A DNA stretch of 64,000 nucleotides from Desulfocurvibacter africanus subsp. africanus DSM 2603 (GTDB lineage: Bacteria > Desulfobacterota > Desulfovibrionia > Desulfovibrionales > Desulfovibrionaceae), in NCBI RefSeq assembly GCF_000422545.1, contig NZ_AULZ01000008.1, positions 1 through 64,000 of the forward strand, written 5' to 3'. Within the stretch, counting starts at the first letter, position 1. Every line of letters begins with the position of its first letter. The notes under the pieces were generated by a model. That model did not search any database, was not told the origin of the DNA, and worked only from the letters and a program-made list of their open reading frames with translations. The position numbers and the translations under genes are program-made. Below, piece by piece: positions 11,926-28,893 of this stretch.

Positions 11926-11947
11926 ACGACCTCCTCCCTGACAGACT

Positions 11948-12072: not shown

Positions 12073-12651
12073 CTACCCTATCATGCCCTTGAAGGCGAAA
12101 AAGGCCAGGGACATGAGCCCGGCCATGGCCAAACCAATGGGCGTGCCGCGCAGGGAGCGGGGCACGCGCTTGACCGCCAGACGTTCGCGGATGCCGGCCA
12201 GGAGCACCAGCGCCAGCATGAACCCAGCCCCCGAAAACAGCGCGAAGGCTACGGTCTTGATGAACGAATACTCGGCGCGCTGGGTGATGAGCGCGATGCC
12301 CAGCACGGCGCAGTTGGTGGTGATCAGCGGCAGGAAGATGCCGAGGGCTTTATACAGGGGTGGCATGGCCTTCTTGAGAAACATCTCCACGAACTGCACC
12401 AGGGCCGCGATGACCAGGATGAAGGTCAAGGTCTGCAGGTAGCCTATGCCGAAGGGCTCCAGCAGGTATTTTTGCACCAGCCAGGTGATCGCCGCGGCCA
12501 TGACCGAGACGAAGACCACGGCCGCGCCCATGCCGAGCGCCACCCCGCTCTCCTTGGAGGTGCCGATGAACGGGCAGTTGCCCAGATATTGGGCCAGCAC
12601 GATATTGTTGACGAAAACCGCGGCCACGAAAAGAAGGAAGTATTCCTGCAT
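12073..12651 (-). CDS. rnfA: Rnf complex membrane subunit A
   Basis: 192 residues, six hydrophobic segments, full family length. Opens with EYFLLFVAAVFVNNIVLAQY and carries the two half-channel cysteine motifs LGNCPFIG and TTNCAVLG, which bind the intramembrane iron-sulfur centre shared with RnfE in Rnf/Nqr structures. AGGAGA ribosome site before ATG 12651, 9 nt after the rnfE stop. It forms the ion-translocating core with RnfD and RnfE. Confidence 0.95.
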   Translation of the reverse strand: MQEYFLLFVAAVFVNNIVLAQYLGNCPFIGTSKESGVALGMGAAVVFVSVMAAAITWLVQKYLLEPFGIGYLQTLTFILVIAALVQFVEMFLKKAMPPLYKALGIFLPLITTNCAVLGIALITQRAEYSFIKTVAFALFSGAGFMLALVLLAGIRERLAVKRVPRSLRGTPIGLAMAGLMSLAFFAFKGMIG

Positions 12652-12660
12652 GGCGCTCTC

Positions 12661-13341
12661 CTACTTGCCGCCGCGGATGCCCGCCGCCGAGCAGGCCCGG
12701 CACGAGCCGCAGCTCAGGTTCTCAATCTCGGCCAAGCCCTGCCGCCTGCGGCGCCAATTGGTCGCGTAGTTCATGGCTCCCAGGAGCAGTCCCAGGCAGA
12801 CGAAGGCCCCGGGCGCCTCGACCATGAAACCGAAGGGTTTGAAGCTCGACCAAGCGATCTGCTGGCCGAAAAGTGTGCCGTAGCCAAGCAGCTCGCGCAG
12901 CCCGCCCAGGAACGTCAGGGACATGGCGAAGCCCAGGCCCAGGCCCAGGCCGTCGGCCACGGACAGCAGCGGCCCGTTGCGAGAGGCGAAGGCCTCGGCG
13001 CGGCCCAGGATGATGCAGTTGACCACGATGAGCGGCACGAAGATGCCCAGTTGCAGGTAGAGCGGATAGGCATAAGCCTGCATGAGCAGCTCCACGGCTA
13101 CGACCAGGGTCGCGGCGATGACGATGAAGCAGGCGATGCGCACCTTGGGCGGGATGATATTGCGCACCAGGGAGACCAGGAGGTTGGACAAGGCCAGTAC
13201 GAAGATGACCGCCAAGCCCATGCCCAGGCCATTGCCGGCCGTCTTGGTCACGGCCAGGGTCGGACACAGGCCGAGCACGAGTTTGAATGGCGGCAGCTCC
13301 TTCCACAGACCCTTGGAGAATTCCTTCCACAGCGCGTTCAT
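12661..13341 (-). CDS. rnfE: Rnf complex membrane subunit E
   Basis: 226 residues, six membrane segments, sister of RnfA. Conserved cysteine motifs VLGLCPTLAVT and VVNCIILGRAEAF match the RnfA/E intramembrane cluster sites. The C-terminal tail after the last helix is Arg-rich and then has three closely spaced cysteines (LSCGSCRACSA), which I do not expect in the enterobacterial protein. GGAGG ribosome site before ATG 13341. Sits between rnfG and rnfA as usual. Confidence 0.94.
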   Translation of the reverse strand: MNALWKEFSKGLWKELPPFKLVLGLCPTLAVTKTAGNGLGMGLAVIFVLALSNLLVSLVRNIIPPKVRIACFIVIAATLVVAVELLMQAYAYPLYLQLGIFVPLIVVNCIILGRAEAFASRNGPLLSVADGLGLGLGFAMSLTFLGGLRELLGYGTLFGQQIAWSSFKPFGFMVEAPGAFVCLGLLLGAMNYATNWRRRRQGLAEIENLSCGSCRACSAAGIRGGK

Positions 13342-13382
13342 GCGATGCCTCCAGGCTAAAACTATAACCGATCCCGGATGTG

Positions 13383-13964
13383 TCAGGACCAGGTCTTCTC
13401 GAATTCGGGCTTAAGCGCCTTGTAAATTTCCGCTGCCTGACGCACGGCCTCGACGGCCCCGGTGGAGGAAACCGTGGCCCCGGCCACGGCGTTGACCGAT
13501 CCTCCCTGGGCCGACAGCGCCAGCCCGTCCAGGGCGCGGTTGTGGAACTGCGTGGTGAAGCCGTGTTGCGCCACGCGAGTGCCCACGCCCGGTGTTTCCT
13601 TCATGGTCGTCATGCCGATGCCCATGATGCGGTCCGACTCCAGGGAAAAGGCTGTGATGACGCCGATGTCCCCGCCGTAACCAGGGCCCTGGGTTTCGAA
13701 AGCCACGCCCACGAGCCGACCTTCCCGTATGACCGGAAAGACCAGGACTTCGCGGCCCGTACTCGGCAAAACGAAGGTCTGACGGTCCTGAACCGGGTCG
13801 TTGTCACGCTGGCCGATGACTGCATCGAGCACCGGTCTCTGCACATAGGCCAATACCTGCTCCTCGATGCGCGGGGCGGTGTATTCGCGCAGGGAGGCCA
13901 GGGTCAGGCCGGACAGACCGGCGATGACCGAGAGCACCACGACCATCTTGAACATCTCGCGCAT
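13383..13964 (-). CDS. rnfG: Rnf complex flavoprotein subunit G
   Basis: 193 residues: one N-terminal membrane anchor (MVVVLSVIAGLSGLTLASL) and a periplasmic FMN-binding domain. The region for covalent FMN attachment by ApbE reads VNAVAGATVSSTGAV near residue 160, a recognisable G-A-T flavinylation motif. The rnfD stop lies 3 nt upstream. It would pass electrons between the cytochrome/RnfC side and the membrane subunits. Confidence 0.92.
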   Translation of the reverse strand: MREMFKMVVVLSVIAGLSGLTLASLREYTAPRIEEQVLAYVQRPVLDAVIGQRDNDPVQDRQTFVLPSTGREVLVFPVIREGRLVGVAFETQGPGYGGDIGVITAFSLESDRIMGIGMTTMKETPGVGTRVAQHGFTTQFHNRALDGLALSAQGGSVNAVAGATVSSTGAVEAVRQAAEIYKALKPEFEKTWS

Positions 13965-13967
13965 GGC

Positions 13968-14972
13968 CTACCTCGCTCCGAAAGGTTTGGGCCGGATGCG
14001 GGCCAGCATCGGTGTGAACAGATTGGCCAGCAACACGGCGAAGGGCGCGCCGTCGGGATAGATGCCGTAGATGCGGATGACGGCCGTCAGCGCGCCGGCC
14101 AACAGGCCGAACAGGAGCATGGGCAGCACGCGCGATGGACTGGAGGGTTCGTCCGTGGCGGCGAAGAAGGCCACGAAAATGGCGCTGCCCGCCAGCAGGT
14201 GGAAGAGCGGCGAGGCATGGGACGCCGGATCGCTCAGCCAATAGATTCCCGTGGTGGCGACCAGACCGGTTAGAAAAGCCAGCGGAATTTCCCAACGCAC
14301 CCGGCCAAGGGCCAGAAGCAACAGACCGCCCGCCGATACGGCCCAGAGCTGGCTTGCGCCCAGGCCGCCGAGCTGCCGCCCCAGCAGGAGCTGCACGGAC
14401 GTGATCCCGTCCACGGCCTCGGGGCCGAAGAACTTGAGATGGTGCAGGGGCGAAATCAACTCCGAGGCCAGCATAGAGAACTCGGCGTCCATGGCCTCGG
14501 GCCAAGACAAGCGGCACACTGCCCAACCCACAAGGGCCGGACTCAGGGGGCTGCCTCCCAGGCCGCCGAAGATCATCTTGCCGAGCACTATGCTCGACGC
14601 CGCGCCCATGACGGCCAGCCACCATGGCGCGGCGGCTGGCAGGAGGAAGGCCAGCACGAGACCCACGTACAGGCAGTGGTAGTCGTCCGCGCTGCTCTGA
14701 CGGCCCATGAGCCGCTCGCACAAGGTTTCGGTTATTATGGCCGTGGCCCCGCACAAGGCCATGACGCGCACGGCCGGCAGTCCATAAGCCACTGCCGCCA
14801 TTATCGCGGCAGGAGCCAGAGCGGCGATGGAGGTCAGCATCAGGGAGCGCACGCTGGAGCCGGCGTGAGCAAAGGGCGGAGCCGAGACCGTGAGCACGGG
14901 CGCGGCGGTCAGGGGGCGCAGTGCTCCCGCCCCGAGTACTCGCGCCGTTTTATCGGGCGTCAGAGATTGCAT
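13968..14972 (-). CDS. rnfD: Rnf complex membrane subunit D
   Basis: About 334 residues from ATG 14972, chosen because GGGAG precedes it; an in-frame ATG at 15020 lacks a ribosome site. Multiple membrane helices and the NqrB/RnfD signatures GKMIFGGLGGSPLSPALVGW and ATDEPSSPS identify it. At the place where RnfD/NqrB carry a covalent-FMN threonine (S/T-G/S-A-T) the sequence is DGITSVQLLLG, with Gln where Thr is expected, so flavinylation here is doubtful. The spacer to rnfC holds a ~125-bp structured repeat. Confidence 0.92.
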   Translation of the reverse strand: MQSLTPDKTARVLGAGALRPLTAAPVLTVSAPPFAHAGSSVRSLMLTSIAALAPAAIMAAVAYGLPAVRVMALCGATAIITETLCERLMGRQSSADDYHCLYVGLVLAFLLPAAAPWWLAVMGAASSIVLGKMIFGGLGGSPLSPALVGWAVCRLSWPEAMDAEFSMLASELISPLHHLKFFGPEAVDGITSVQLLLGRQLGGLGASQLWAVSAGGLLLLALGRVRWEIPLAFLTGLVATTGIYWLSDPASHASPLFHLLAGSAIFVAFFAATDEPSSPSRVLPMLLFGLLAGALTAVIRIYGIYPDGAPFAVLLANLFTPMLARIRPKPFGAR

Positions 14973-15090
14973 ATGGCAGTCTCCCGGGTTGTCGGACCAA
15001 GTCGTTTTCAAACAGCTCATATCGCGAAGGCCGAGGGAAACAGTCTCCCATCGATCATAATCAGAGGCAGTCCTCGCTTGTGCAATCTCT

Positions 15091-15215: not shown

Positions 15216-15219
15216 AATA

Positions 15220-16347
15220 TCAGACTGATTCGGCCACCTCGCGCAACTGCTGCTTGGCCAGGCGGATATACTGCAGCACGGGCCGGTGCGTGGGGCACAC
15301 GTAGGCGCACAGGCCGCACTCCATGCAGGCGTCGATGTAATTGTCCACGGCCTGCTTGAGCAGCCCGAACTCGGCGCAGCCCGAGAGCAAGCCCGGGTCC
15401 ACCCTGGATGGACAGATACGCACGCACTTGCCGCATTCCATGCACGGCGCATCGGTTACGGGAGCATGCGCCCCGGCCGGCACTACCGACAAGCCATACA
15501 CGCCCTTGTCCACGCCTTGCCCCAGGGAGCGGGCCGTGAAGCCGCGAAAGAGGCCGTCCAATACCACCCGGTCGCCGTCCCGAGCATCCAGGCCGGCGGC
15601 TGCGAGCACTTCGGACACGGGCGTGCCCACGACGACCAGGAAGTTGCGCTCGCCGACCGTGAGCACGGTCCTGTCGCAGGGCAGACCAGTCTCGGCCACC
15701 TGCCCCAGGCAGAACAATTCATGCACGGACAGTGCGGCCACGCCCTCGGGATTCTCCTTGCCCGTCACGGCCTTGATGACCAAGGGGTCCAGGGTCTGCG
15801 GGTAGACAGCGGGCACGGATCTGGTGTCGCAGCCCGCCAGCGAGGCGGCCACGCCCTGGCGCAACGCCAGCACGCACACACTTGCGCCCATGACCCTGCG
15901 GGCCAGGTCCAGGCCTGCCTGCAGCGTGGGCGCGAAGTCCCGCAAAAGCAGCTCGGCCGAGGTAACGCCCGGCTCGGAGTTGAGCCCGTTGATCACCAGC
16001 GTGTTTATTACCGCCAGAGGTGCGATATCCACGCCCAGGCTCCGCAGGACCGCGCGCAACGTGCCGCCCTCCAGCGCCGCGAGGTCGACCGGCTCAGCCC
16101 TGGCCTCGCCCTGCGCAACTACGCACACGTTCCACTTGTCCACCAGATCGACCTTGCCGGCCACGGGCGCGTGCGCGTCGCCCAGGCCTGGTTCCAGCGC
16201 CTCGGCCACAAGCTGACCCTTGGTCACGGCCTGGCCGCAAGACACTCTAGGAGCATGGCCGGCCAGGGGCACGCAAGCGCGGACCGGCGCCGGCAAGGCC
16301 ATTGCGGCTGGACCCGGATCCGTTGATGGAGAAAACATCCTGTTCAT
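15220..16347 (-). CDS. rnfC: Rnf complex NADH/ferredoxin-side subunit C
   Basis: About 375 residues from ATG 16347 (GGTGA ribosome site); a Met at 16368 overlaps the cytochrome stop. It has the RnfC N-terminal barrel-sandwich (KGQLVAEAL ... HAPVAGKVDLV), the NADH/FMN-binding Rossmann-like core, and two 4Fe-4S motifs near the C-terminus, CMECGKCVRICP and CMECGLCAYVCP. It lacks the long Ala-rich tail of E. coli RsxC, as expected for short RnfC forms. It would be the cytoplasmic entry point of the complex. Confidence 0.93.
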   Translation of the reverse strand: MNRMFSPSTDPGPAAMALPAPVRACVPLAGHAPRVSCGQAVTKGQLVAEALEPGLGDAHAPVAGKVDLVDKWNVCVVAQGEARAEPVDLAALEGGTLRAVLRSLGVDIAPLAVINTLVINGLNSEPGVTSAELLLRDFAPTLQAGLDLARRVMGASVCVLALRQGVAASLAGCDTRSVPAVYPQTLDPLVIKAVTGKENPEGVAALSVHELFCLGQVAETGLPCDRTVLTVGERNFLVVVGTPVSEVLAAAGLDARDGDRVVLDGLFRGFTARSLGQGVDKGVYGLSVVPAGAHAPVTDAPCMECGKCVRICPSRVDPGLLSGCAEFGLLKQAVDNYIDACMECGLCAYVCPTHRPVLQYIRLAKQQLREVAESV

Positions 16348-16352
16348 GGCGA

Positions 16353-17117
16353 TCACCGGATATGGCACTTGTTGCAGTCATCGTCTTTGTAGGGCCCCTG
16401 CCGACGCTCCTCGTGACAACTCATGCACTGGTCGTGGAAGGCATTGGTGCGCGTGAGCACCAGTTCCTTCTCGGGGTGCTCGTCATGACATTGGGCGCAG
16501 CCGGTGAAGTCTCCGTGCCACTTGGTCATGTCCGCCTCCACATGACAGGATTTGCAGCTTGTCAGGCCGTGGTCGAACATATCCTGATGGCAGCTGGCGC
16601 AACGGGTGTGACCTGCTTCCATCTGATCGGGCATGGAGTCACCGCTCTCAGGTTTTTCCTCGGGGTGGCAGCTGCGGCAGGACTGGGGCTCGGGCTCGAT
16701 GTCAGGGCCGTGGTGACAGGCCTGGCAGTCTCCGCCGGCGTACTCCACATGCTCGTCATGGCCGAAATTCAGCTTGGCGTATTCCAGGTGGTGGCACTGG
16801 ATGCAGTACGTTTTGTCCGGGAAGGAAGCCACGTGCTGCTTCACATACTGCTCGTCAAAGGCCAGCGGATGGCAGGAGCCGCACGGCAGTGGCTCGGCGC
16901 CCTGGGGTGCGTTCTCGTGGTGGCAGGCTTCGCAGGCGATGGCGTAGTCACGATGGTGACGCAGGTGGGTGAAGACCACCTTTCCGCCCGTATTGTCGAA
17001 AAGGATGCGTACCGGAAGTTTCTGGGATTCAGCCGGGGTCAGATACCCGGCCACGGCCACGACCAGCAGCACCGCGCATGTGGCGATGATGGGGAAATAC
17101 TTCCTGGGCAGTCGCAT
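16353..17117 (-). CDS. Decaheme c-type cytochrome of the Rnf operon
   Basis: 254 residues with an N-terminal signal anchor (IIATCAVLLVVAVAGYL) and ten CxxCH haem-binding motifs (CEACH, CGSCH, CIQCH, CQACH, CRSCH, CASCH, CKSCH, CAQCH, CMSCH, CNKCH) plus many free His for second axial ligands. It is the first gene of the rnf operon and sits directly before rnfC, as in Desulfovibrio genomes. It would connect the Rnf complex to the periplasmic cytochrome c3 / hydrogenase / formate dehydrogenase pool. GAGGGA ribosome site before ATG 17117. Confidence 0.94.
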   Translation of the reverse strand: MRLPRKYFPIIATCAVLLVVAVAGYLTPAESQKLPVRILFDNTGGKVVFTHLRHHRDYAIACEACHHENAPQGAEPLPCGSCHPLAFDEQYVKQHVASFPDKTYCIQCHHLEYAKLNFGHDEHVEYAGGDCQACHHGPDIEPEPQSCRSCHPEEKPESGDSMPDQMEAGHTRCASCHQDMFDHGLTSCKSCHVEADMTKWHGDFTGCAQCHDEHPEKELVLTRTNAFHDQCMSCHEERRQGPYKDDDCNKCHIR

Positions 17118-17231: not shown

Positions 17232-18755
17232 TTACGGCACCGATGTCGCCGTGACGTTTGCCCATTCAGGCAGCGTATTCAACTCCACGCCCCACAGCGC
17301 GGGCATGATGTAGGCGGTAAAGCCCGTGATAAGGATGATGCCTATGATGTTCAGCCACACGCCGGCCTTGGCCATCTGCGGGATGGTCACACAGCCCGTG
17401 CCGAAGATGACCGCGTTGGGCGGCGTGGCCACGGGCAGCATGAAGGCGTAGGAGGCCGCCACGACCGCGCCGACGATGGTGGCGTACGGATGCACGCCCA
17501 GGGCCACGGCGGACGCGCCCATGATGGGAATGAGCAGCGTGGCGGTCGCGGTGTTCGAGGTGACCTCGGTCAGGAAGATGGTCATGGTCACCACGATGGC
17601 GACGAAGGAGAGCATGCTCAGGCCGTCGAGCAGCGTGAGCTGCTGGGCTATCCAAACCGCCAGGTCGGTCTTGGCGAAGCCGTTGGCGATGGCCAGACCG
17701 CCGCCGAAGAGCAGGATGACGTCCCAGGGGATCTTGACCGCGGTCTTCCAGTTGAGCAGAAACTCGCCCTTCTTGAAGTCGGAGGGGATGGCGAACATGG
17801 CCAGGGCGCCAAGAATGCCGATGGTCGCGTCGGCGATCATCTTGAAGCCCAGGTACTTGACGATGAGCGCCTGGAATATCCACATCAAGGAGACCACGAG
17901 GCCCACGTAAACGATGTACTTCTCTTCCTTCTTCATGGGCCCAAGATCGCGCAGCTCTTTCTCGATGATGGCCGCGCCTCCGCCGAGCTCCAGGTTGCCG
18001 GTCTTGAACAGCACCTTGGTCAGCAGAAACCAGGTAATGGCCAGCATGATTGCGGACAAGGGCACGCCGTACATCATCCACTCGGCGAAGCTGATGGTCT
18101 GGCCGTACAACTTCGCGATCATGCCGACCATGATGACGTTGGGCGGAGTGCCTATGATGGTGGCCACGCCGCCGATGGACGCAGCGTAGGCGATGCCCAG
18201 CATGAGGCCTTTGCCGAAGTTGATTTCGCCCGTGGAGCCTCCCACGCGCTCACGCATCTGATCGCTATTCAGGCCGGTTGCTTGCATGACCACGGCCAGA
18301 CCGATGGGCACCATCATCATGGCCGTGGCGGTGTTGGATATCCACATGGACAGGAAGCCCGTGGCCAGCATGAAGCCGAGCGTCATGCGCGAGGGGCTCG
18401 TGCCCACCAGCCTGATGGTGTGAATGGCGATGCGCCGATGCAGGTTCCAGCGCTCCATGGTCACGGCGATGAAGAAGCCGCCCATGAACAGGAATATGAG
18501 ATGGTCGGCGTAAGGAATTGTGGCTTGCGCCGACTTCATGATGCCCAAAGCAGGGAACAGCACGATGGGCAGCAGCGACGTGGCCGGAATGGGAATGGCC
18601 TCGGTGATCCACCAGACGGCCATGAGTACGGTGATGGCTGCCACTTTCCAGGCCTCGGGCTTCATACCCTCGGGCACTGGCAGGAGCAGCATGGCAATGA
18701 ACAGGATGGGGCCAAGGATAAAACCTATCCTTCGACCTTGACTAGACTCTTTCAC
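17232..18755 (-). CDS. DASS (SLC13-type) dicarboxylate transporter
   Basis: About 507 residues with around eleven or more membrane segments. Both Na+/substrate SNT motifs are present (WISNTATAMMM and VTSNTATATLL), as in VcINDY-type succinate/malate carriers. I chose GTG 18755 because AGGGGAGG sits 4 nt before it; the upstream in-frame ATG (18803) has no ribosome site and would add 16 residues spanning a CCCCC-AGAA-GGGGG hairpin. Next to malic enzyme, fumarase and fumarate reductase, the likely cargo is malate, fumarate or succinate. Confidence 0.9.
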   Translation of the reverse strand: MKESSQGRRIGFILGPILFIAMLLLPVPEGMKPEAWKVAAITVLMAVWWITEAIPIPATSLLPIVLFPALGIMKSAQATIPYADHLIFLFMGGFFIAVTMERWNLHRRIAIHTIRLVGTSPSRMTLGFMLATGFLSMWISNTATAMMMVPIGLAVVMQATGLNSDQMRERVGGSTGEINFGKGLMLGIAYAASIGGVATIIGTPPNVIMVGMIAKLYGQTISFAEWMMYGVPLSAIMLAITWFLLTKVLFKTGNLELGGGAAIIEKELRDLGPMKKEEKYIVYVGLVVSLMWIFQALIVKYLGFKMIADATIGILGALAMFAIPSDFKKGEFLLNWKTAVKIPWDVILLFGGGLAIANGFAKTDLAVWIAQQLTLLDGLSMLSFVAIVVTMTIFLTEVTSNTATATLLIPIMGASAVALGVHPYATIVGAVVAASYAFMLPVATPPNAVIFGTGCVTIPQMAKAGVWLNIIGIILITGFTAYIMPALWGVELNTLPEWANVTATSVP

Positions 18756-18905
18756 GGGACCTCCCCTTGTTTGCCCCCAGAAGGGGGACGTTACATGCCT
18801 CACTCCTCTATATTTGCCGCGCAGCCCTCGCGCGACCCGTCCACCGGGCCGCGGACGGGCGCGCGAGGCGCGCGGGTTGTAAAATTACGTTGAAGACAGC
18901 CTGGG

Positions 18906-20228
18906 CTAGACGTCCAGGTTGTACATATCCACGAAGGCCTCGACGCGCTTGCGCGACTCGCCGAGACGCTCGCGCAGGGACTTCTTGTAGGCTTCCATGT
19001 CCGCGATGGGCTTGCGGGCCACGCCGGTGTCCATGGCCGCCTGGGCCACGGCCGTGGATTCCCACTCGATGAGCCGCAGGTCCAGCGGCTTGGGGATCAC
19101 GTAGTCCACGCCGAACTTGAGTTCCTTGACCCCGTAGGCCTGGCAAACGTAGTCGGGCGCGGGCTCCTTGGCCAGGGCGGCCAGGGCCTTGGCCGCGGCG
19201 ATCTTCATCTCCTCGTTTATGGCCTTGGCCTGCACGTCAAGCGCGCCACGGAAGATGAAGGGGAAGCCGAGCACGTTGTTGATCTGGTTGGGGAAGTCCG
19301 AGCGGCCGGTGCCCATGATGGCGTCGGGCCGGGCTTCCTTGGCGTCCGGGTAAGGGATCTCGGGATCGGGGTTGGCGCAGGCGTAGATGATGGGATTCTT
19401 GCCCATGCCCTTGACCATATCCTTGCTGACCGTGCCGGCCGCGGACAGGCCCAGGAACATGTCCGCGCCCTTGAGACCTTCGCCCAGGGAGCCGACGTCC
19501 TTCTTCTGGGCGAAGAACTTCTTGGTCTCGTTCAGGTCCTTGCGTCCCTCATGCAGCAGACCCTTGGAGTCGTACATGTAGACGTTCTCTTTCTGGATGC
19601 CGAGGCTCAGGTAGAACTTGGTGCAGGCGATGGCGCTGGCGCCCGCGCCCGAGACCACGAGCTTCATGTCCTCGACGCGCTTGCCGCTGATCTCCAGGGC
19701 GTTGATGAGGCCCGCGCCGGAGATGATGGCCGTGCCGTGCTGGTCGTCATGGAATACCGGGATGTCCATCATGGCCTTGAGCTTCTCTTCTATGTAGAAG
19801 CACTCGGGAGCCTTGATGTCTTCCAGGTTGATGCCGCCGAAGGTGGGCTCCAGGGACTTGACGATCTCGATGAGCTTGTCCGGATCGTTGCAGTCCAGGT
19901 TGATATCGTAGACATCCACGTCGGCGAAGACCTTGAACAAAACGCCCTTGCCTTCCATGACCGGCTTGCCGGCATGGGGGCCGATGTTGCCCAGGCCCAG
20001 CACCGCCGTGCCGTTGGAGACAACGGCCACCAGGTTACCGCGACCGGTGTACTCGTAGACCAAGGACTGATCCTGGTGGATGGCGCGGCAGGCCTCGGCC
20101 ACGCCGGGGCTGTAGGCCATGGACAGGTGCTTCTGGGTCTTGCAGGGCTTGATGGGCACGACCTCGACTTTGCCCTTGTGGCCCTTGGAATGGTACTCCA
20201 GCGCTTCCTGCTTCGTGTAAAGAGCCAT
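18906..20228 (-). CDS. Malic enzyme (NAD(P)-dependent)
   Basis: 440 residues from ATG 20228 (GGGAGG ribosome site). Oxidative decarboxylation of malate to pyruvate. Family blocks seen: [29 protein letters not shown], metal-binding [10 protein letters not shown], Rossmann [12 protein letters not shown] and ACANPDPEI. This is the short bacterial malic enzyme without a fused phosphotransacetylase domain. It follows the fumarase genes after 58 nt, so fumarate made or imported can be channelled to pyruvate; cofactor preference cannot be read reliably. Confidence 0.93.
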
Positions 20229-20286
20229 CATATCCTCCCAGTGTTCATGTGTGCACTCGCGCGCGACAAACCTATCCCAGCCTGGC

Positions 20287-20844
20287 CTACTCCAGCCCGG
20301 CGGCCTTGAGGTCCGGCTTGGCGTACAGTTCCCCGCCCTGGCAGTCATTGATGACCAGCAGCGGGAAATCCTTGACACTCAACTCGCGGATGGCCTCGGG
20401 GCCGAGTTCCTCGTAAGCGATGACCTTGGCCGCCGTGATGCACTTGGAGAGCAGCGCGCCCGCGCCGCCCGTGGCCCCGAAGTAGGCGGCCTTGTGCTCG
20501 CGCAGGGCCTGCTTGACCTCCTCGCTGCGCTTGCCTTTGCCGATGGTGCCCTTGAGGCCCAGGCCGTGCAGGCGCGGCGCATAGCTGTCCATGCGGTAGC
20601 TCGTGGTCGGCCCGGCCGCGCCGATGGGCCGCCCCGGAGGCGCGGGACTGGGACCCACGTAGTAGATGAGTGAACCCTCCAGCCGGAAGGGCAGTTCGTC
20701 GCCCTTGTCCAGGGTCTCCACCAGCCGTTTGTGGGCCGCGTCGCGGGCCGTGTAGATGGTGCCCGTGAGCTTGACCACGTCTCCGACCTTGAGCTTCTGG
20801 ATGTCAGCGTCGGTCAGAGGCGTCTTGAGCGAATATTCCGCCAT
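20287..20844 (-). CDS. Class I fumarate hydratase, beta subunit
   Basis: 185 residues, corresponding to the C-terminal domain of one-piece class I (Fe-S) fumarases. It contains RLHGLGLKGTIGKGKRS, the GATGGAGALL loop and a YEELGPEAI segment, all typical. ATG 20844 shares one base with the alpha-subunit stop (TGATG), so the two subunits are translationally coupled. Functions as a heterodimer with the adjacent alpha subunit; L-tartrate dehydratase is the usual alternative, but the frd neighbours favour fumarase. Confidence 0.92.
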   Translation of the reverse strand: MAEYSLKTPLTDADIQKLKVGDVVKLTGTIYTARDAAHKRLVETLDKGDELPFRLEGSLIYYVGPSPAPPGRPIGAAGPTTSYRMDSYAPRLHGLGLKGTIGKGKRSEEVKQALREHKAAYFGATGGAGALLSKCITAAKVIAYEELGPEAIRELSVKDFPLLVINDCQGGELYAKPDLKAAGLE

Positions 20845-21686
20845 CAGATCTCCACCTCCTGGTGTCGGGAAGAGTGGCACTGGACGTTGACCGCCAAGGG
20901 CAGGCTGGCCAGGTGGCAGGGGCGCATCTCGATCTTCACGCCCAGGCAGGTGGTCTTGCCGCCGAGGCCCATGGGGCCGATGCCCAGCTTGTTCACGGCC
21001 GCAAGCAGCTCCTGCTCCATGGCCGCGATCTTGGGATCGGGATGGAGCGCGTCCAGGGACCGCATGAGAGCCTTCTTGGCCAGAATGGGCGCATAGTCGA
21101 AGGTGCCGCCCACGCCGATGCCGAGGATGGTAGGCGGGCAGGGGTTGGGACCGGCCTCGGCCAGGCGCTGGATCACGAACTTCTTGATGCCTTCCCAGCC
21201 CTGGGCCGGGGCGAGCATGGTCACGCGGCTCATGTTCTCCGAGCCGCCGCCCTTGGCCATGAAGCTGATCTTGAGCTTGTCGCCGGGCACCATGTCGAAG
21301 TGCACGATGGCCGGCGTGTTGTCGCCCACGTTCTTGCGCGTCATGGGATCGCAGGAAGACTTGCGCAGGAAGCCGTCCTTGTAGCCCTTGCGCACGCCTT
21401 CGTTGATGGCCTCGCGCAGGTTCATGCCCGTGACGCGCACGTCGTCGCCCACGTCCACGAAGAACACGGCCAAGCCAGTGTCCTGGCACAGCGGCAGGCC
21501 GGTCTCCTCGGCCAGCTCGTAGTTCTCCTTGAGCTGACGAAAGACCTCCTTGGCCGCCGGCAAATCCTCGGCCGCGGCGCAGGCGTCGAAGGCGCGCTTG
21601 ACGTCGGCGGGCAGATAGCGGTTGGCCTTGATGCACATGTCGGCCACGGTATCGATGATCTGTTGTGCGGGAATCTCGCGCATCAT
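20844..21686 (-). CDS. Class I fumarate hydratase, alpha subunit
   Basis: 280 residues. Holds the three cysteines of the catalytic 4Fe-4S cluster in GLPLCQDTG, NPCPPTILG and KTTCLGV, plus the KGGGSENMS loop. Two adjacent ATG codons (21686 and 21683) follow GGGGGAG; the second has the better spacing. It starts 7 nt after the frdB stop, so fumarase is made with fumarate reductase. Oxygen-sensitive Fe-S fumarase fits an anaerobe. Confidence 0.93.
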   Translation of the reverse strand: MMREIPAQQIIDTVADMCIKANRYLPADVKRAFDACAAAEDLPAAKEVFRQLKENYELAEETGLPLCQDTGLAVFFVDVGDDVRVTGMNLREAINEGVRKGYKDGFLRKSSCDPMTRKNVGDNTPAIVHFDMVPGDKLKISFMAKGGGSENMSRVTMLAPAQGWEGIKKFVIQRLAEAGPNPCPPTILGIGVGGTFDYAPILAKKALMRSLDALHPDPKIAAMEQELLAAVNKLGIGPMGLGGKTTCLGVKIEMRPCHLASLPLAVNVQCHSSRHQEVEI

Positions 21687-21693
21687 CTCCCCC

Positions 21694-22428
21694 TTACTTG
21701 AACAGCCGCTTGAGCGCCGTAATGCCCATCCTGCGACGCAGGAAACCGAGCTGGTTCTGCAGCGGCAGTCCCTTGGGACATACGTCCTCGCAGGCCAGCA
21801 GGCCCATGCAGCCGAAGATGCCCTCGTCGTTGCCGATGATCTGGTAGTAGTCCTTGTCCGAGCGCTGGTCGCGCGGGTCCACCACGAAGCGGGCGATGCG
21901 GTTCAGGCTGGCGGCGCCCAGGAAATCGGGACGCAGGCGCGCCGTGCCGCAGGCCGACACGCAGCAGCCGCACTCGATGCAGCGCTCGAGTTCGTAGACC
22001 TGCTCGGCCACGGCATTGTCCATGCGCTCCTCGAGCGCCGCCGGGTCGAAGGCCTTGCTGGTGTGCACCCAGGATTCGACCTTGTCGTACATCTGGCGGA
22101 ACCAGACGCCCGTATCCACGGACAGATCACCAACCAGCTTGAACACTGGCAGGGGCAGAAGCGTGATCTCGTCCGGCAGTTCCTTCGTCTTGGTCTTGCA
22201 GGCCAGGTTGGGCCTGCCGTTGATGACCATGGCGCACGCCCCGCAGATGGCCGCGCGGCAGCAGAAGTCGAACTGCAGCGACGGGTCCTGCTCTTCGCGC
22301 AGGCGGTTGAGGGCGATGAACAGGGTCATGTTCTCGGTCTCGTCCAGCACGTACTTTTGCATGTGCGGAACGGACGCGGGATCTTGCGGGTTGTAACGGA
22401 ATATCTCGAACTGAAGGTTTCTGGCCAT
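21694..22428 (-). CDS. frdB: Fumarate reductase/succinate dehydrogenase iron-sulfur subunit
   Basis: 244 residues with the three-cluster set of SdhB/FrdB: 2Fe-2S (CCRAAICGACAMVING ... C), 4Fe-4S CIECGCCVSAC, and the 3Fe-4S site CMGLLACEDVCPKGLP followed by a second cysteine set. Gene order C-A-B and sequence style match the Wolinella-type quinol:fumarate reductase. It passes electrons between the cytochrome b haems and the FrdA flavin on the cytoplasmic side. Confidence 0.94.
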   Translation of the reverse strand: MARNLQFEIFRYNPQDPASVPHMQKYVLDETENMTLFIALNRLREEQDPSLQFDFCCRAAICGACAMVINGRPNLACKTKTKELPDEITLLPLPVFKLVGDLSVDTGVWFRQMYDKVESWVHTSKAFDPAALEERMDNAVAEQVYELERCIECGCCVSACGTARLRPDFLGAASLNRIARFVVDPRDQRSDKDYYQIIGNDEGIFGCMGLLACEDVCPKGLPLQNQLGFLRRRMGITALKRLFK

Positions 22429-22440
22429 CGTCGGCTCCCC

Positions 22441-24336
22441 TTAGTTGGCGGTCTTGGCCTTGGCGGCTTCAGCCGGCTTCGCGCCCGGCTTGATGGTCAA
22501 CTTGGCGATCTTCTCCGCGTCGGCGGTGATGATCTTGCCTCCGCCGTAGCCGCGCTCGCCCGGGGGCAGCTCGTAATACGGGGTCGGATCCTCGTACTCC
22601 AGACGCGGCAGGCGAGCGCCCTCGGGCCAGTAGGCCAGGGTGCGCTTGAGCCAATCGCGGTCGTTGCGCTCGGGGTAGTCTTCGCGGGTATGCGAGCCGC
22701 GGCTTTCCTTGCGCTCCAGGGCTGCCTTGGCGATGCACAGGGCGAGCTTGACCTGGCCCTGGATCTTGAGCGCGGCGGACAGCTCAGGATTGGCGCCGAT
22801 GCCGCTGGACTGGAGGCCGACAGCCTTGGCCCGCTCCATGACTTCCTGCAGCACGTTCACGCACTTCTCCAGATCCTTGCCGTTGCGGAACACGAAGCAG
22901 CCGTCCATGAGCGCGTCCTGCATGGCCTCGCGGACCCTGTAGACGTTCTCGCGGCCGTTCTTGCCCGCGATGAGGGCGTCGATGCGCGACTGTTGCTTGA
23001 GCAGGGCATCGCGGATGGTCTTGGTGGGGAAGTTGACCTCATGGCCCTGCAGGAACTCGGCGATCTTCTTGCCGATGATGCCGCCGGCCACGACCGTCTC
23101 GGCCAGGGAGTTGCCGCCCAGGCGGTTGAAGCCGTGCATGTCCCAGCAGGCGGCCTCGCCGGCCGAGAACAGGCCCTTGAGCCCGTAGGCCGCGCCATCC
23201 TTGTTCGTGCGGATGCCGGACATGGTGTAGTGCTGCGTGGGCCGCACCGGGATGAGGTCCACGCGCGGGTCGACACCCAGGAAGTTCTGGCAGATCTCGT
23301 CCACCTCGCGCAGCTTGGTGGATATGTGCTTGTCGCCGAGGTGGCGGATATCGAGCCACAGGTGCTCGCCGTAGGCGCTCTTGACGCCCTTGCCGGCGCG
23401 CATGTGCTCGGTCATGCGCCGGCTGACCACGTCGCGCGAAGCCAGCTCGGCCTTCTCGGGCTCGTAAATCTGCATGAAACGCTCCTTGTTCACATCAAGG
23501 AGCGTGCCGCCGTCGCCGCGGCAGCCTTCGGTGACCAGGATGTCGGTGGGCACGATGCCGGTCGGATGGAACTGGATGGCCTCGGGGTTGCCGAGCGGCA
23601 CCAGGCCCGTGTCCATGGCGATGGCATGGCCGCCGCCGTCGCAGATGACCGCGTTGGTGGTGGCCTTGTAGATGCGGCCGAAGCCACCGGTGCAGATGGC
23701 CGTGGCCCGCGCCACGTAAGCCTCCAGCACGCCGGTCTTGAGGCAGCGCACCACCGCGCCCAGACAGTTCGCGCCGTCGTGGATGAGCGCTATGGCTTCC
23801 TTCTTATCGAAAACATTGATTCCGAGCTGGGCGCAGCGGTTGTCGAGGGTGCACATGACCGCGTGGCCCGTGCCGTCGGAGGTGTAGCAGGTGCGCCACT
23901 TGGCCGTGCCGCCGAAGGCGCGGGCCGTGATGAGGCCCTCCTTGTCCTCCTCCTCGATCTTCTCGAACTTCTCGCCGCCCTTGAAGAAGGTCGACTTGCC
24001 GGGCACCACGCGGTTCCAGGGCACGCCCCAGAAGGCCAGCTGGCGCATCTCTATGGGCGCGTTATCCACGAACATGCGCGCCACTTCCTGGTCCGCGCCC
24101 CAGTCGGAGCCCTTGACCGTATCGGCGAAGTGCACGTCGGGACAGTCGCCCTTGCCCATGGCGCAGTTGCCGAGCGCCGCCTGCATGCCGCCCTGGGCAG
24201 CCGATGAGTGCGAGCGCCGGGCCGGCACGATGGACAGCACGTTGACGCCGAAGCCCGCGCCAGCTGCCTCCACGGCTATGCGTTCGCCGGACAGTCCCGC
24301 GCCGATGACCAGCAGATCGGAAAAATAGGTCTGCAT
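22441..24336 (-). CDS. frdA: Fumarate reductase/succinate dehydrogenase flavoprotein subunit
   Basis: 631 residues. FAD-binding VIGAGLSGER at the N-terminus, the histidyl-FAD attachment region ARRSHSSAAQGG, substrate motif QFHPTGIVP, catalytic-arginine region TEGCRGDGG and C-terminal HYTMSGIRTN are all intact. Cytoplasmic; reduces fumarate to succinate or the reverse. The gene order C-A-B with a single diheme membrane subunit suggests a reversible menaquinone-linked enzyme. 12-nt gaps to both neighbours. Confidence 0.95.
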   Translation of the reverse strand: MQTYFSDLLVIGAGLSGERIAVEAAGAGFGVNVLSIVPARRSHSSAAQGGMQAALGNCAMGKGDCPDVHFADTVKGSDWGADQEVARMFVDNAPIEMRQLAFWGVPWNRVVPGKSTFFKGGEKFEKIEEEDKEGLITARAFGGTAKWRTCYTSDGTGHAVMCTLDNRCAQLGINVFDKKEAIALIHDGANCLGAVVRCLKTGVLEAYVARATAICTGGFGRIYKATTNAVICDGGGHAIAMDTGLVPLGNPEAIQFHPTGIVPTDILVTEGCRGDGGTLLDVNKERFMQIYEPEKAELASRDVVSRRMTEHMRAGKGVKSAYGEHLWLDIRHLGDKHISTKLREVDEICQNFLGVDPRVDLIPVRPTQHYTMSGIRTNKDGAAYGLKGLFSAGEAACWDMHGFNRLGGNSLAETVVAGGIIGKKIAEFLQGHEVNFPTKTIRDALLKQQSRIDALIAGKNGRENVYRVREAMQDALMDGCFVFRNGKDLEKCVNVLQEVMERAKAVGLQSSGIGANPELSAALKIQGQVKLALCIAKAALERKESRGSHTREDYPERNDRDWLKRTLAYWPEGARLPRLEYEDPTPYYELPPGERGYGGGKIITADAEKIAKLTIKPGAKPAEAAKAKTAN

Positions 24337-24348
24337 GATGTCTCCCCC

Positions 24349-25011
24349 CTATTCCGCCAAGACGGTGGCCAGGGTTGCGAAGCGGATCAGGGTGATCACG
24401 CCGATGGTCATGAACAGGGCGAACAGCCCATATTCAAACTTCTTGCCCATCGCGCGGTTGTCGCTGCGGATGAAGCCCCACTTGACGCCGATGCGGTAGA
24501 AGCCCACGGACACGTGCAGCTCCACCATGGGCAGCAGCACGGCATAGAACACGAGCCAGAAGCCGCTCTGCACGCGGGCCGCGGATTTCTGAGCCGTGAT
24601 GGGCAGGTCGTTGAGCACGACCCACATATGGATTGCGCCGAGAATGAGAATGATCATGGCCGAGACGACCTGCACCAGCCACAGCCAGGTGTCGCGGTGC
24701 TTGAGCATCAGGGCGTGGTCGGCCATCAGGCGCTGGCCCTCGAAGCGGAAGGGAATCTTGCGCGCCGCGAGTACGAAGTGCACCAGAAAGGCCAGAAAAA
24801 TGAGCGGCCCGCCCACCTGGGCCATGTAGGTGGATTCGAAGAAGTCGGCGATGGCGTTCATCACCCCTGGGCCGACGATCACCGAGGAGACCAGCACCAT
24901 GTGCGACCACATGAAGAGCACCAGCCCCAGTCCGGTAAGCATCTGCAGCCAGTCATAGTAGGCGTCCCTGCGTGTGGGGCGCGCTACGTGGGCCGTAACA
25001 TAAGTGGACAT
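24349..25011 (-). CDS. frdC: Fumarate reductase diheme cytochrome b subunit
   Basis: 220 residues from ATG 25011 (GGAGG ribosome site). Five membrane segments with one histidine placed in each of the first four (MWSHMVL, FLVHFVL, GAIHMWV, VELHVSV), the ligand pattern for two b haems as in Wolinella succinogenes FrdC. Anchors FrdAB and links it to menaquinone. First gene of the frd-fumarase-malic enzyme series. An upstream in-frame ATG (25098) gives an Arg-rich leader and is unlikely. Confidence 0.93.
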   Translation of the reverse strand: MSTYVTAHVARPTRRDAYYDWLQMLTGLGLVLFMWSHMVLVSSVIVGPGVMNAIADFFESTYMAQVGGPLIFLAFLVHFVLAARKIPFRFEGQRLMADHALMLKHRDTWLWLVQVVSAMIILILGAIHMWVVLNDLPITAQKSAARVQSGFWLVFYAVLLPMVELHVSVGFYRIGVKWGFIRSDNRAMGKKFEYGLFALFMTIGVITLIRFATLATVLAE

Positions 25012-25117
25012 GAACGAACCTCCAGCTTGCGGCGCGCTACGCCGCGTTGAGCGAAACGGGCCAGGCCCGAGCGCCACCCTGCGGGATGGCGCGGACATGC
25101 GTCGCGGTTTGGGCTAG

Positions 25118-25838: not shown

Positions 25839-25856
25839 ATGTGAACTTGTTCACAT
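25839..25856. promoter_or_regulatory. Perfect 18-bp operator palindrome ATGTGAACTTGTTCACAT
   Basis: Two 8-bp arms around TT. It fits both a TetR-family autoregulatory operator (73 bp before the probable tetR start) and the CRP/FNR pattern TGTGA-N6-TCACA. Its right arm overlaps an in-frame ATG (25855), arguing that translation starts further downstream. Confidence 0.7.
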
Positions 25857-25929
25857 GAATGGTAAGTCAATGCCACTGACCGAGTCTAACCCGCCACTCA
25901 CCGAAGCCGCCGCAAGGCAGGAAAACTCC

Positions 25930-26553
25930 ATGCCCAAGAAGACGGCCATCCTGCACTCAGCACAGGAAGTTTTCGGCCAGCACGGTTATTCGACCACGAC
26001 CATGAAGATGGTCGCCGAAAAGGCCGGCGTGGCCTTCGGCCTAGTTGCCCATTATTACGGCAACAAGGAAAGCCTGTTTATCACCGCGGGCTTCTCCATG
26101 ATCGACGACCTGCTGGCCACTTTGAGCCACAAAACGCGCAAGGCGCGAAGCGGCCTGGACGGCGTGCGCCTGTTCGTGGAGAGCTATCTGACTTTCACCC
26201 AGGAGCACCGCCGGACCTTCCCCGTGCTCATTCGTTGCTCGCCCTTCAGCGACGTGGAGCTGCCTGCGGAGCGAGAGCGCATCGCCGAGAAATTCCTGGA
26301 AATCATCCGCGCTCTCCAGGCTTTCGTACGCCGGGGCCAACAGGACGGCTCCATCAATCCTGAACTGCCCGAGGCCGAGACCGCCTTTCTTATCTACTCC
26401 AATATAGTGGGCGCAGTGCGCACGACCATGATCACACCCTACAACGTGCCCGGCCTATACGCCGAGACCGTGCGCTACGTGGTGCGTTCGCTAAGCGTCG
26501 CGGCCGAGAGTTCCATACCGCCATTTCTGCGGCCCAGCAGCTTGGTGGATTAA
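25930..26553 (+). CDS. TetR-family transcriptional regulator
   Basis: 207 residues from ATG 25930 (AGGCAGGA ribosome site); an ATG at 25855 would add 25 residues but overlaps the operator palindrome. N-terminal HTH: ILHSAQEVFGQHGYSTTTMKMVAEKAGVAFGLVAHYY spans the three TetR helices (about residues 5-42), followed by NKESLF. The C-terminal ligand/dimer domain is divergent, so the inducer is unknown. It lies 24 nt before the MFS-ApbE gene, and probably represses that operon and itself. Confidence 0.88.
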   Translation: MPKKTAILHSAQEVFGQHGYSTTTMKMVAEKAGVAFGLVAHYYGNKESLFITAGFSMIDDLLATLSHKTRKARSGLDGVRLFVESYLTFTQEHRRTFPVLIRCSPFSDVELPAERERIAEKFLEIIRALQAFVRRGQQDGSINPELPEAETAFLIYSNIVGAVRTTMITPYNVPGLYAETVRYVVRSLSVAAESSIPPFLRPSSLVD

Positions 26554-26577: not shown

Positions 26578-28893
26578 ATGACCAGCCCCGCCAAGCCGCG
26601 CCCGCAGTCCATGCCCGCATTGCTGACGGGCTTGGCCTTGTCCGGCCTGGCCGCGGGCGCATTCTCCTTCGCCTACCCGCTCACGGCCGCCGGTCTCGCC
26701 TCCGCGCCCCTGGCTCCGATGGATGGCGCGAGCTGGATTGGAGCGGCCTTTTCCATTTATTTCCTGGCCAAATTGGCAGCAGCACCCGTGATGGGCTGGC
26801 TGGCCGACCGCATGGACGGCTACGGCCGGAGCGGAGCATCCATGGGCACGCTCATGGCCCTGGCCTGTGTATTTGCCTCGGCCTTGCCTCTGCTCTTCCA
26901 GGCGGCCAGCAGTGTCGGGAAAGCCCAGCTGGGGCTGCTGCTGGTACAGGCAGGCCTCGGGCTGTGCGCCGGAGCCAGCAGGCCCCTAGCCTTGGCGGCG
27001 GCAGCCGGGCCAACCTCGGCCGCGCCTGCCGGTCGACGCCTGGCGCAAGCCGCCCTGGCCAACCAACTGGCTTTTCTCCTGGCGCCTCTCCTGGGCGGGC
27101 TGATCCTGGCCGGACGGGATATCCAAGCCGTGCTGGCCTTCCTGTCGGTCGGCATGCTTGCGGCGGCTCTGTTTTTCTTCCTGGCCTTGCCGCGCTGCAC
27201 GCGCACATTCAGACCGCCCATTCCCGGCACTGCAGCAAGCCATCCCGACCCGGTCGGGCCACGGCTGCTGCCCGCGCTGCGTGCGGCCCTGGCCGACCCG
27301 CTTGCCGCCAGGCTGCTGCCCGCCGTGGCAGGCCGGGCTCTGGGCATCGCGGCTTGGGCGGCATTCCTGCCCATGTTCCTGACCTCCAGCCTGCCGCGCG
27401 ATCCACTGCTCTTCGGCCTGCTCTTCAGCTTGCCCAATCTTGCGGTCTGCCTTGGCCTGCCCTTCACTGGCCGGCTGGCCGACGGTCCGTACGCCCTGCG
27501 CTGGGCGGCCGGCGGCATGCTTATCAGCGCCCTGGGTCTGTTGGCCCTGCCGCTGTTGCCTTCCACAATCTGGGCCGTGGCCATCTCCGGCTTGGCCGCA
27601 GGCTTGGGCTCGGCCGCTTCGCTGCCCGCATCCTTGGGACTTGCCGCATCCTCTGGACCAGACCGGGCCACGCACATGGCCGTGTACCAATCCGCTGCCA
27701 GCCTGGGGTTCGTGGTTGGGCCTCTACTCGGCATTCTTGCCGTGCGCGCCTTCGGCACGGCCGAGGCCGCCCTCGGCTTGGGCGGGTTGTGCGGCGTCCT
27801 ATGCTGCCTTCCCCTGCTCGCGGGAACTCTGCCTGTGGCGACGCGCAGCCCGGTCCTGGCCGGCGCCGTGGCCCTGGTCCTGATTCTGGCCGCCATTCCG
27901 CTGCAGCGAGACGCACACCCGCCCGCAACCGGTCTGCCTTCGATCCGCAACGCCGCTGCCGCAAGCATAAGCGGCATACCATACCAGTATGCCGACTTGG
28001 CCATGGGCACCATCGTCCGCCTGAGCCTGGAAGCTCCCGACAGACACGTGGCCGATGCCGCGGCGGATAAGGCCTTCGAACTTATTCGCATCATGCAGGC
28101 CGATTTGGACCTGCGCAATCCGCACGGCTCCGTAGGCCGCGTGAATTTGAATGCTGGCCGCGCTCCGGCGCAGGTCAGCAGTGAGGCCTATGGCGTCATC
28201 GAGCGCGGCCTGGCCTGGGGCAGGCTCACTAGCGGCGCCTTCGACATCAGCGTGGGAGCCGTGAGTCGTGTCGCGGCCTACTGGGGGCTGGACCCATGGT
28301 ATGCGCGGGCGCAACAAGGGCTGGTGGACTACCGCAAGGTCGTGCTGGACCCGGTCAAGCGCACGGTGTTTCTGCCCGAGGCCGGCATGGCCCTGGACCT
28401 GGGCGGCCTGGCCAAGGGAGCGGTCATCGATGCGACAGTGGAGCTGCTGCGTCGCTCGGGTGTTGCGGCGGGCATCGTGGAGGCCGGTGGGGACATGTAC
28501 TGCTTCGGAACGCGCGCTTGGCGCGTGGGCATCGAGAATCCGCGCGGTCCCGGTCTGCTAGGCTCGGCTCTGCTGCGCGAGCGCGGCATATGCGGCTCGG
28601 GCGACTATCGTCGCTTCGCGTCTGGCGATGATCCCAGGAGCCAGGGACGGCGTCATCACGTTCTGGACCCGCACAGCCTGAGCTCGGTGTCGGGTAGCGC
28701 GGCCGTAACGGTATTTGCTGAAAACGCCGAGACGGCCGACGCCCTGGCCACGGCCTTGCTCGTCCTTGGCCCAGAGCGCGGAATCGAGTTCCTTAGCCGG
28801 GAGCTCGGCGCGGCGGCCTTGTGGGTGCATGATGATCTCACCTTGATAGCCTCGCCCGGTTTCCCCGAAATGTTGTCTTCGCCTGTCAGGTGA
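26578..28893 (+). CDS. MFS permease fused to ApbE FAD:protein FMN transferase
   Basis: 771 residues. Residues 1-420 form a major-facilitator permease with twelve hydrophobic segments and a GWLADRMDGYGR loop between TM2 and TM3. A thirteenth segment (about 425-443, VLAGAVALVLILAAIPL) then carries the chain back across the membrane. Residues about 465-765 are a complete ApbE domain: LAMGTIVRLSL (474), LDLGGLAKGAVID (607), GGDMYCFG (637), HHVLDPHS (693) and the Mg-binding ETADALATALLVLG (718). With 12+1 helices the ApbE domain falls in the periplasm, where RnfG-type proteins receive covalent FMN. The permease could supply FAD or another flavin, or move an unrelated solute. Start ATG 26578 has GAGGA 7 nt before it. 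Directly under the TetR gene. Confidence 0.9.
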   Translation: MTSPAKPRPQSMPALLTGLALSGLAAGAFSFAYPLTAAGLASAPLAPMDGASWIGAAFSIYFLAKLAAAPVMGWLADRMDGYGRSGASMGTLMALACVFASALPLLFQAASSVGKAQLGLLLVQAGLGLCAGASRPLALAAAAGPTSAAPAGRRLAQAALANQLAFLLAPLLGGLILAGRDIQAVLAFLSVGMLAAALFFFLALPRCTRTFRPPIPGTAASHPDPVGPRLLPALRAALADPLAARLLPAVAGRALGIAAWAAFLPMFLTSSLPRDPLLFGLLFSLPNLAVCLGLPFTGRLADGPYALRWAAGGMLISALGLLALPLLPSTIWAVAISGLAAGLGSAASLPASLGLAASSGPDRATHMAVYQSAASLGFVVGPLLGILAVRAFGTAEAALGLGGLCGVLCCLPLLAGTLPVATRSPVLAGAVALVLILAAIPLQRDAHPPATGLPSIRNAAAASISGIPYQYADLAMGTIVRLSLEAPDRHVADAAADKAFELIRIMQADLDLRNPHGSVGRVNLNAGRAPAQVSSEAYGVIERGLAWGRLTSGAFDISVGAVSRVAAYWGLDPWYARAQQGLVDYRKVVLDPVKRTVFLPEAGMALDLGGLAKGAVIDATVELLRRSGVAAGIVEAGGDMYCFGTRAWRVGIENPRGPGLLGSALLRERGICGSGDYRRFASGDDPRSQGRRHHVLDPHSLSSVSGSAAVTVFAENAETADALATALLVLGPERGIEFLSRELGAAALWVHDDLTLIASPGFPEMLSSPVR

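Follow-up and report, generated by a model that had tools for sequence, protein, structure and literature searches.

An MFS permease–ApbE fusion in Desulfocurvibacter africanus, a candidate FAD exporter that feeds its own flavin transferase

The DNA analysed here, referred to as the window, is a stretch of 64,000 nucleotides from Desulfocurvibacter africanus subsp. africanus DSM 2603 (contig NZ_AULZ01000008.1, positions 1 to 64,000). Its forward strand holds an open reading frame (ORF; 26578-28893, +, ATG start) that encodes, in a single frame of 771 aa, a permease of the major facilitator superfamily (MFS) fused to ApbE, the transferase of flavin mononucleotide (FMN) from flavin adenine dinucleotide (FAD) to proteins. 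The MFS domain (residues 1-419; 26578..27834, +) is matched by Pfam MFS_1 in two stretches (1.1e-24, the best being residues 251-422) and has 12 transmembrane helices (TM1-TM12) in the structural model. A further helix, TM13 (residues 420-445; 27835..27912, +), is predicted to take the chain to the periplasm, and is followed by the ApbE domain (residues 464-771; 27967..28893, +), which is recognized by Pfam and by comparison with the FmnB, Ftp and ApbE structures. The Pfam match to ApbE (PF02424) has an E-value of 2.4e-58 and 198.2 bits against a curated cut-off of 25.6, and extends over residues 476-748 and positions 1-265 of the 266 in the profile. A first, sequence-only reading of this gene had called the domain complete and named four motifs, and all of these (LAMGT, LDLGGLAKG, HHVLDP, and ETADALATALL) are indeed found; HH, GMALDLGG, A720, D721, A724, and T725 are invariant across 16 aligned fusions. 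Pfam domains other than MFS_1 and ApbE were not found in the fusion at E-values up to 0.001, hence neither ECF subunits nor a MATE domain.

In hydropathy averaged over the alignment of the 16 fusions, 13 TM centres (24 to 434) precede the ApbE domain, inside which there is a single weaker peak, at 562. The AlphaFold2 model also has 13 long helices, of which the thirteenth spans 420-445 (the first reading had put it at 425-443), with ApbE starting at ≈464. Counted over the first 30 residues of each loop, the mean number of K and R is 2.7, 2.2, 1.9, 3.8, 2.6, 1.6, and 2.5 in the cytoplasmic loops and 0.9, 0.2, 0.9, 0.4, 0.1, and 0.4 in the outer loops; it is 2.4 for the first 30 residues past TM13, though these represent the start of the folded domain. 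Thirteen TM helices together with positive-inside loop charges place the ApbE domain outside the cytosol. A periplasmic ApbE half, which had been proposed from the odd helix count with topology prediction as the check, is therefore well supported by prediction. The model has a mean pLDDT of 78.8 and a pTM of 0.58, and because of the latter the mutual orientation of the MFS and ApbE domains in it is not reliable. Structural matches of the ApbE half are T. pallidum Ftp and Listeria FmnB, with a TM score of 0.85 by target length against 7esb and a Z of 35.9 (2.2 Å over 303 residues) against 4ifw. This half, whose site is intact, is a predicted flavin transferase.

A gene for a TetR-family regulator (25855..26553, +; Pfam TetR_N, 5.1e-13) ends 24 bases upstream of the fusion on the same strand, and the two are probably co-transcribed. 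A TetR homologue occupies the equivalent place in 20 of the 53 fetched fusion loci. On the minus strand, 9.5 kb from the fusion where the first reading had noted ≈10 kb, lies a complete rnf cluster (9829-17117) in the order cytochrome c3, C, D, G, E, A, B. Its first gene encodes a multihaem cytochrome c3 (16353..17117, -; Pfam), followed by rnfC (15220..16368, -), which was assigned from its place in the cluster and from homologues in the rnf clusters of relatives, its RnfC_N and Complex1_51K matches being weak and both below cut-off. Then come rnfD (13968..15020, -; Pfam NQR2_RnfD_RnfE, 5.6e-82), rnfG (13383..13964, -; Pfam FMN_bind, 6.9e-12), the proposed client with the putative flavinylation site VAGATVSS, rnfE (12661..13341, -) and rnfA (12073..12651, -), both Pfam Rnf-Nqr, and rnfB (9829..11925, -; Pfam). 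Between rnf and the fusion are genes for a symporter (Na_sulph_symp), malic enzyme, fumarase, and frdB-frdA-frdC (17232..25098, -; Pfam), and frd genes fall inside the fetched stretch at 36 of the 53 fusion loci. No apbE lies beside the rnf cluster of the window, and the fusion is the sole ApbE on the contig. The whole genome (4.4 Mb, 40 contigs) contains two ApbE and two FMN_bind matches, and the second pair lies on contig C15, where another rnf cluster (cytochrome-C-D-G-E-A-B) is followed by a stand-alone apbE. The fusion is thus not the only flavin transferase of this genome. RnfB of both clusters has a C-terminal pyridine-nucleotide oxidoreductase domain.

A search for the MFS-ApbE architecture across genomes, suggested with the first reading, used a profile built from six fusions. 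Of the 348 genomes of the order, 53 (the window's own among them) carry the fusion in full length, at 54 places in all, a recurrence which shows that the fusion is not a chance event. Genus g5 accounts for 34 of these genomes (of 36 in the genus) and g8 for 16 (of 17), and a single one comes from each of g1 (the window's own), g22, and g24; the genome G315 carries two (L196 is from G315). One stop was reported in the matched stretch for 16 of the 54 rows, and internal stops were absent from the 15 fusion loci named. Further fusions occur in metagenome-assembled genomes (MAGs) labelled Deltaproteobacteria (DOLJORAL/DOLZORAL, dolphin mouth by name), in one labelled Desulfobulbus and in AUK300. 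The 58 fusions used below are 53 loci plus L074, L076, L078, L084, and L080, some of them near copies.

A profile from the fused alignment A1 gave 79 loci, 15 of which (L071-L085) matched both halves. An evenly drawn sample of 395 genomes from the phylum had the fusion in the own genome and in G684 only, the latter with the same gene order as AUK300; this search with A1 scored two candidates per genome, so that unfused MFS could be missed. When it was repeated with A5 at E-values up to 1e-30, 10 of the 395 genomes were matched: G684 (1.6e-85), the own genome and eight weaker ones, which supplied the outside MFS for the comparisons below. A single-sequence scan of genome contigs gave no matches, and a usable pattern was not obtained from the MFS-only alignment A3. 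The row for G004 in alignments A1-A3 is cut inside TM1. An MFS-only match in G524 was discarded as a family member from outside the order, having 26% identity, no reference flavin genes near it and a place among the other MFS in the tree. A 1790-aa ORF in G004 was likewise rejected as a larger fusion, as the match begins at residue ≈1064 and the earlier part resembles, by eye, the antisense of another gene.

The first reading had suggested that the fusion could serve the Rnf complex, and comparison across genomes supports this. All 52 other fusion genomes have FMN_bind matches, and in 29 of them (11 listed with one contig) the fusion is the only ApbE found. Ten genomes have one FMN_bind match and no other ApbE (G004, G045, G021, G023, G289, G308, G302, G283, G301, and G307; completeness 67% for G021 and 99-100% for the remainder), and in all ten this match is RnfG within an rnf cluster. 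Eight of the ten have no apbE within the 19-kb stretch around rnf; of the other two, G023 has the fusion itself behind rnfB, and the contig of G021 ends in rnfB. The motif [STA]GA[TS] is present in 20 of 20 RnfG examined. If RnfG is flavinylated, as this site suggests, the fusion is the only enzyme found for the task in those genomes, since no other ApbE was found there. G297 has an rnf cluster like that of C15 but lacking the apbE, and here too the fusion is the only ApbE found. Gene order is in partial agreement: the fusion lies directly behind rnfB in both G023 (L036) and AUK300 (L080), and in 10 of the 20 genomes examined on that side, all from g5, rnf is found past the symporter of the frd-fum-malic block. 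From these comparisons it is very likely that the fusion flavinylates RnfG. The first reading had also held that a second, stand-alone apbE fully accounting for this flavinylation would count against it. A second, stand-alone apbE does exist here beside the second rnf; no other ApbE was found in the 29 genomes mentioned. The survey of clients covered FMN_bind matches, as distinct from clients of the DUF2271 and DUF3570 kinds.

In four loci the gene directly upstream of the fusion encodes a small protein with a pair of FMN_bind-like repeats (sites such as AKASMSSDG), possibly a second type of client: L196 (8185-8865), L074 (9192-9935), L078 (9200-9907), and L084 (9153-9830). Both repeats of the L196 protein pass the Pfam cut-off; the other three were assigned to its group from BLAST alone. 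As a client, fumarate reductase was discounted, FrdA not being a known target of ApbE.

The MFS half also has unfused relatives. Among the matches listed, which go down to 1.7e-32, those to the MFS part alone number 14 (E 8e-84 to 4.3e-74), each in a different one of the 348 genomes of the order. All 14 genes listed adjoin an nqrABCDEF-apbE operon. In 13 cases the MFS gene is just upstream of nqrA and on its strand, and G291 (L204) is the sole case with the gene beyond apbE on the opposite strand. An independent search for nqrA gave 14 clear matches in the 348 genomes (E 1.1e-34 or better), and these are the same 14 genomes as those of the unfused MFS listed. A further 18 matches are weak (1.8e-4 to 9.7e-4) and were not counted as nqrA; four of these pass the cut-off only "with neighbours in the frame" (frames of 666-1225 aa), which brings the tally over the cut-off to 18 genomes.

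An MFS tree was built from 32 of the 58 fetched fusions, the window, 10 of the 14 nqr-linked MFS and eight others, with the root placed on these eight; it carries a long-branch warning. The fused and nqr-linked MFS (33 + 10 rows) are set apart from these eight, the nearest other MFS, with 100/100 support. The ApbE tree (21 of the 58 fusions, the window, five of the 14 nqr ApbE, the C15 ApbE and 44 others; a quick method with no bootstrap) has the 22 fused ApbE domains as one group (SH-aLRT 100), which is most simply explained by a single fusion that later spread, and the ApbE of the nqr operons falls into a different group. As one MFS family thus goes with two distant groups of ApbE, the pairing arose or was kept twice. 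A transporter family that occurs with two ApbE lineages, fused to the one and encoded next to the other, and with two different electron pumps bears the usual signature of a shared task. The task common to the rnf-linked fusion and the nqr-linked MFS may well be the supply of FAD.

By its nearest solved relatives, in sequence as in fold, the MFS half belongs to a class of exporters. The nearest by sequence is NorA, and the nearest folds are VMAT1/2, VAChT, and SotB (Z 40.1 for VMAT1 and 35.2 for SotB). NorA, VMAT, and SotB are classed as exporters of the DHA1 type, a type typified by proton-coupled drug export, an arginine in TM4 (motif B) and the sequence GPxxGG in TM5 (motif C). Motif C is largely kept in the 59 fusions (the 58 fetched and the window), with G169 in 58, P170 in 59 and G173 in 57, the window itself having A169. 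The arginine of motif B is missing: Q124 (TM4; 26947..26949, +) is Q in all 73 fused and nqr-linked proteins (59/59 and 14/14) and R in 8/8 of the nearest other MFS, which were taken from the phylum sample. R135 (TM4; 26980..26982, +) is K or R in 59/59 fusions and 14/14 nqr-linked MFS, and R253 (TM7; 27334..27336, +) is R in the same 59 and 14, each being matched in only 1/8 of the others. Residues kept in all 59 fusions are K/R65, D77, Q124, K/R135, P170, and R253. D77 is the only acid shared within the helices, and the nqr-linked group has an acid at position 400 in TM12. The fusion therefore has the fold and sequence class of the DHA1 exporters but differs from them in its invariant basic residues 135 and 253, Q124, the thirteenth helix and the enzyme domain. 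From what is generally known of MFS proteins, basic residues on the helices lining the cavity would fit an anionic substrate such as FAD, and the loss of the TM4 arginine would speak against a plain proton-drug antiporter.

Taken together, we think it likely that the fusion is an FAD exporter feeding a tethered ApbE, which flavinylates RnfG. The 12-helix MFS half would carry FAD made in the cytosol outward across the inner membrane, TM13 would set the ApbE half on the periplasmic face beside the exit of the permease, and this half would then move FMN from the exported FAD to the GAT threonine of RnfG with release of adenosine monophosphate (AMP). Sequence, prediction, and comparison support the architecture and topology of the protein, the intactness of its ApbE site and its tie to RnfG. 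That the permease supplies FAD had been proposed in the first reading, and this idea has gained the tie of the unfused homologues to nqr-apbE and the shared basic residues; from these we infer transport of a flavin by the MFS half, FAD as that flavin, and an outward direction.

Several observations weigh against this interpretation. The family is narrow, with one fusion outside the order in the phylum sample plus the MAGs named above. The fused MFS alone do not form a supported group (39/0). The MFS half of the window is a long branch (2.05), and its match to the profile of the nqr-linked MFS (3.4e-36) is scarcely above that of unrelated MFS (7.4e-34). The distribution of the 14 nqr-linked genomes (11 in g8, two in g5, and one in g31) means that they stand for few events, not 14, and as the search of the order scored three candidates per genome, more unfused members could have been missed. 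For the client, an additional ApbE is present in 23 of the 52 other fusion genomes, and the stand-alone apbE beside the second rnf could make the fusion redundant in D. africanus. Rnf is not within 15-17 kb in the nine g8 genomes examined beyond the symporter, nor is it near in G297, and the g8 fusion adjoins frd at 15 of 16 loci. Finally, a search for an FMN riboswitch in the window and in L036, L040, L080, and L078 gave no Rfam match at gathering scores.

The route by which FAD reaches periplasmic ApbE is called obscure in one source (PMC12052999), and the FAD supply of ApbE is called an open issue in another (PMC5655446). The fusion and its nqr-linked relatives are a concrete candidate for this delivery, with two halves that can be separated. 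If the interpretation is right, another transporter superfamily would join ECF and MATE in the supply of flavin to the periplasm, and there would be an example of a carrier that feeds its own enzyme. The literature searched, with most subscription journals outside it, yielded no account of the fusion or of an MFS beside nqr-apbE. What appears new, and is the best explanation of the data, is an exporter of flavin dedicated to flavinylation in another superfamily, in a fused architecture that we found described nowhere in these searches.

A more specific form of the proposal, which we regard as unlikely, is that the MFS half represents a new family of flavin-nucleotide transporters exchanging FAD (out) for AMP (in). 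The tethered ApbE would consume FAD upon its exit and the carrier would take the AMP back in, so that transport would be driven by AMP made by ApbE and not by protons, and supply, use, and removal of product would be one machine. This form agrees with the lack of the arginine in TM4 and with the pair of basic residues shared by the fused and nqr-linked MFS, and AMP is described as a product that inhibits ApbE (PMC12052999).

The proposed export of FAD has its nearest functional parallel in the Listeria FmnA/EetB ECF exporter, which is described as delivering FAD to the extracytosolic ApbE-like FmnB and whose genes are often found near apbE and flavinylated proteins (PMC9973259). Both are dedicated transporters tied to apbE that feed, or would feed, an extracytosolic transferase, but the Listeria system is of the ECF type, has separate subunits and is described as most abundant in Firmicutes, whereas the fusion is an MFS protein in one chain with ApbE. 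The C-terminal domain of the fusion is a complete member of the ApbE/Ftp/FmnB family; most characterized members are described as lipoproteins (PMC12052999), and here the ApbE hangs on TM13 of a permease. ApbE in one chain with a functional partner is also reported for the trypanosomatid ApbE–fumarate reductase, where the partner is, however, an intracellular client enzyme (PMC12052999) and not a permease.

It is quite improbable, in our view, that the MFS half is nothing but a membrane anchor, with transport lost or irrelevant and FAD arriving through another exporter such as a MATE protein of the Bfe/YeeO type. Bfe and YeeO have been proposed as the answer to the FAD supply of Vibrio cholerae ApbE, and they belong to another superfamily for which the accessible part of the source mentions no ApbE fusion (PMC5655446). 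Salmonella ApbE is reported to work without its lipid anchor provided that it is periplasmic (PMC12052999), which is in line with a simple anchor, as are the rarity of the fusion family in the phylum sample and the fast evolution of the MFS half of the window. Against a mere anchor stand the six positions kept in all 59 fusions and the unfused MFS that adjoin all 14 nqr-apbE operons found in the order, where they cannot anchor the ApbE.

The MFS half could also be an importer of flavin (riboflavin or FMN from the periplasm, or external flavin) that recycles it near ApbE in the manner of RibZ or of the MFS protein RfnT, but we hold this to be very improbable. RibZ, which is given MFS_1 Pfam domains, and RfnT are described as demonstrated importers of riboflavin (PMC4418817), showing that such proteins can carry flavins, and NQR is reported to hold riboflavin as well (PMC12052999). 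The two importers are set apart from the fusion by description, not by sequence, and no tie to ApbE is seen in the accessible part of the source (PMC4418817). Against import, the nearest relatives of the MFS half by profile and by fold are exporters, the window and the four related loci lack an FMN riboswitch, unlike RibZ of Clostridioides difficile, and import would leave the FAD supply of ApbE unsolved.

A drug or metabolite exporter under TetR control, with the ApbE fusion and the nqr neighbourhood as accidents of operon structure, is hardly credible: the TetR gene 24 bases upstream and the NorA-like sequence, both common for drug pumps, are outweighed by the pairing with two ApbE lineages and by the occurrence of the unfused MFS in the same set of genomes as nqrA, neither of which is easily explained as an accident, and by the replacement with Q of the TM4 arginine found in 8/8 of the nearest other MFS.

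A few side observations concern the flavinylation sites and the second rnf cluster. The motif [STA]GA[TS] is present in both NqrB and NqrC of L040. It is absent from RnfD in 20 of 20 Rnf clusters (the window, 13968-15020, and 19 related rnfD from L005, L036, L080, L210, and others). The motif is reported for E. coli RsxD (PMC12174285), and covalent FMN on RnfD may therefore be missing in Rnf of this type. The stand-alone ApbE of the second rnf (contig C15, L005:6849-8057) has, by eye, a twin-arginine-like leader (TRRAFIRALG). One idea is that it might be exported folded and loaded with FAD, as an alternative way of bringing FAD out. Close to this apbE is a gene of the integrase/transposase type (rve; L005:5023-5913).

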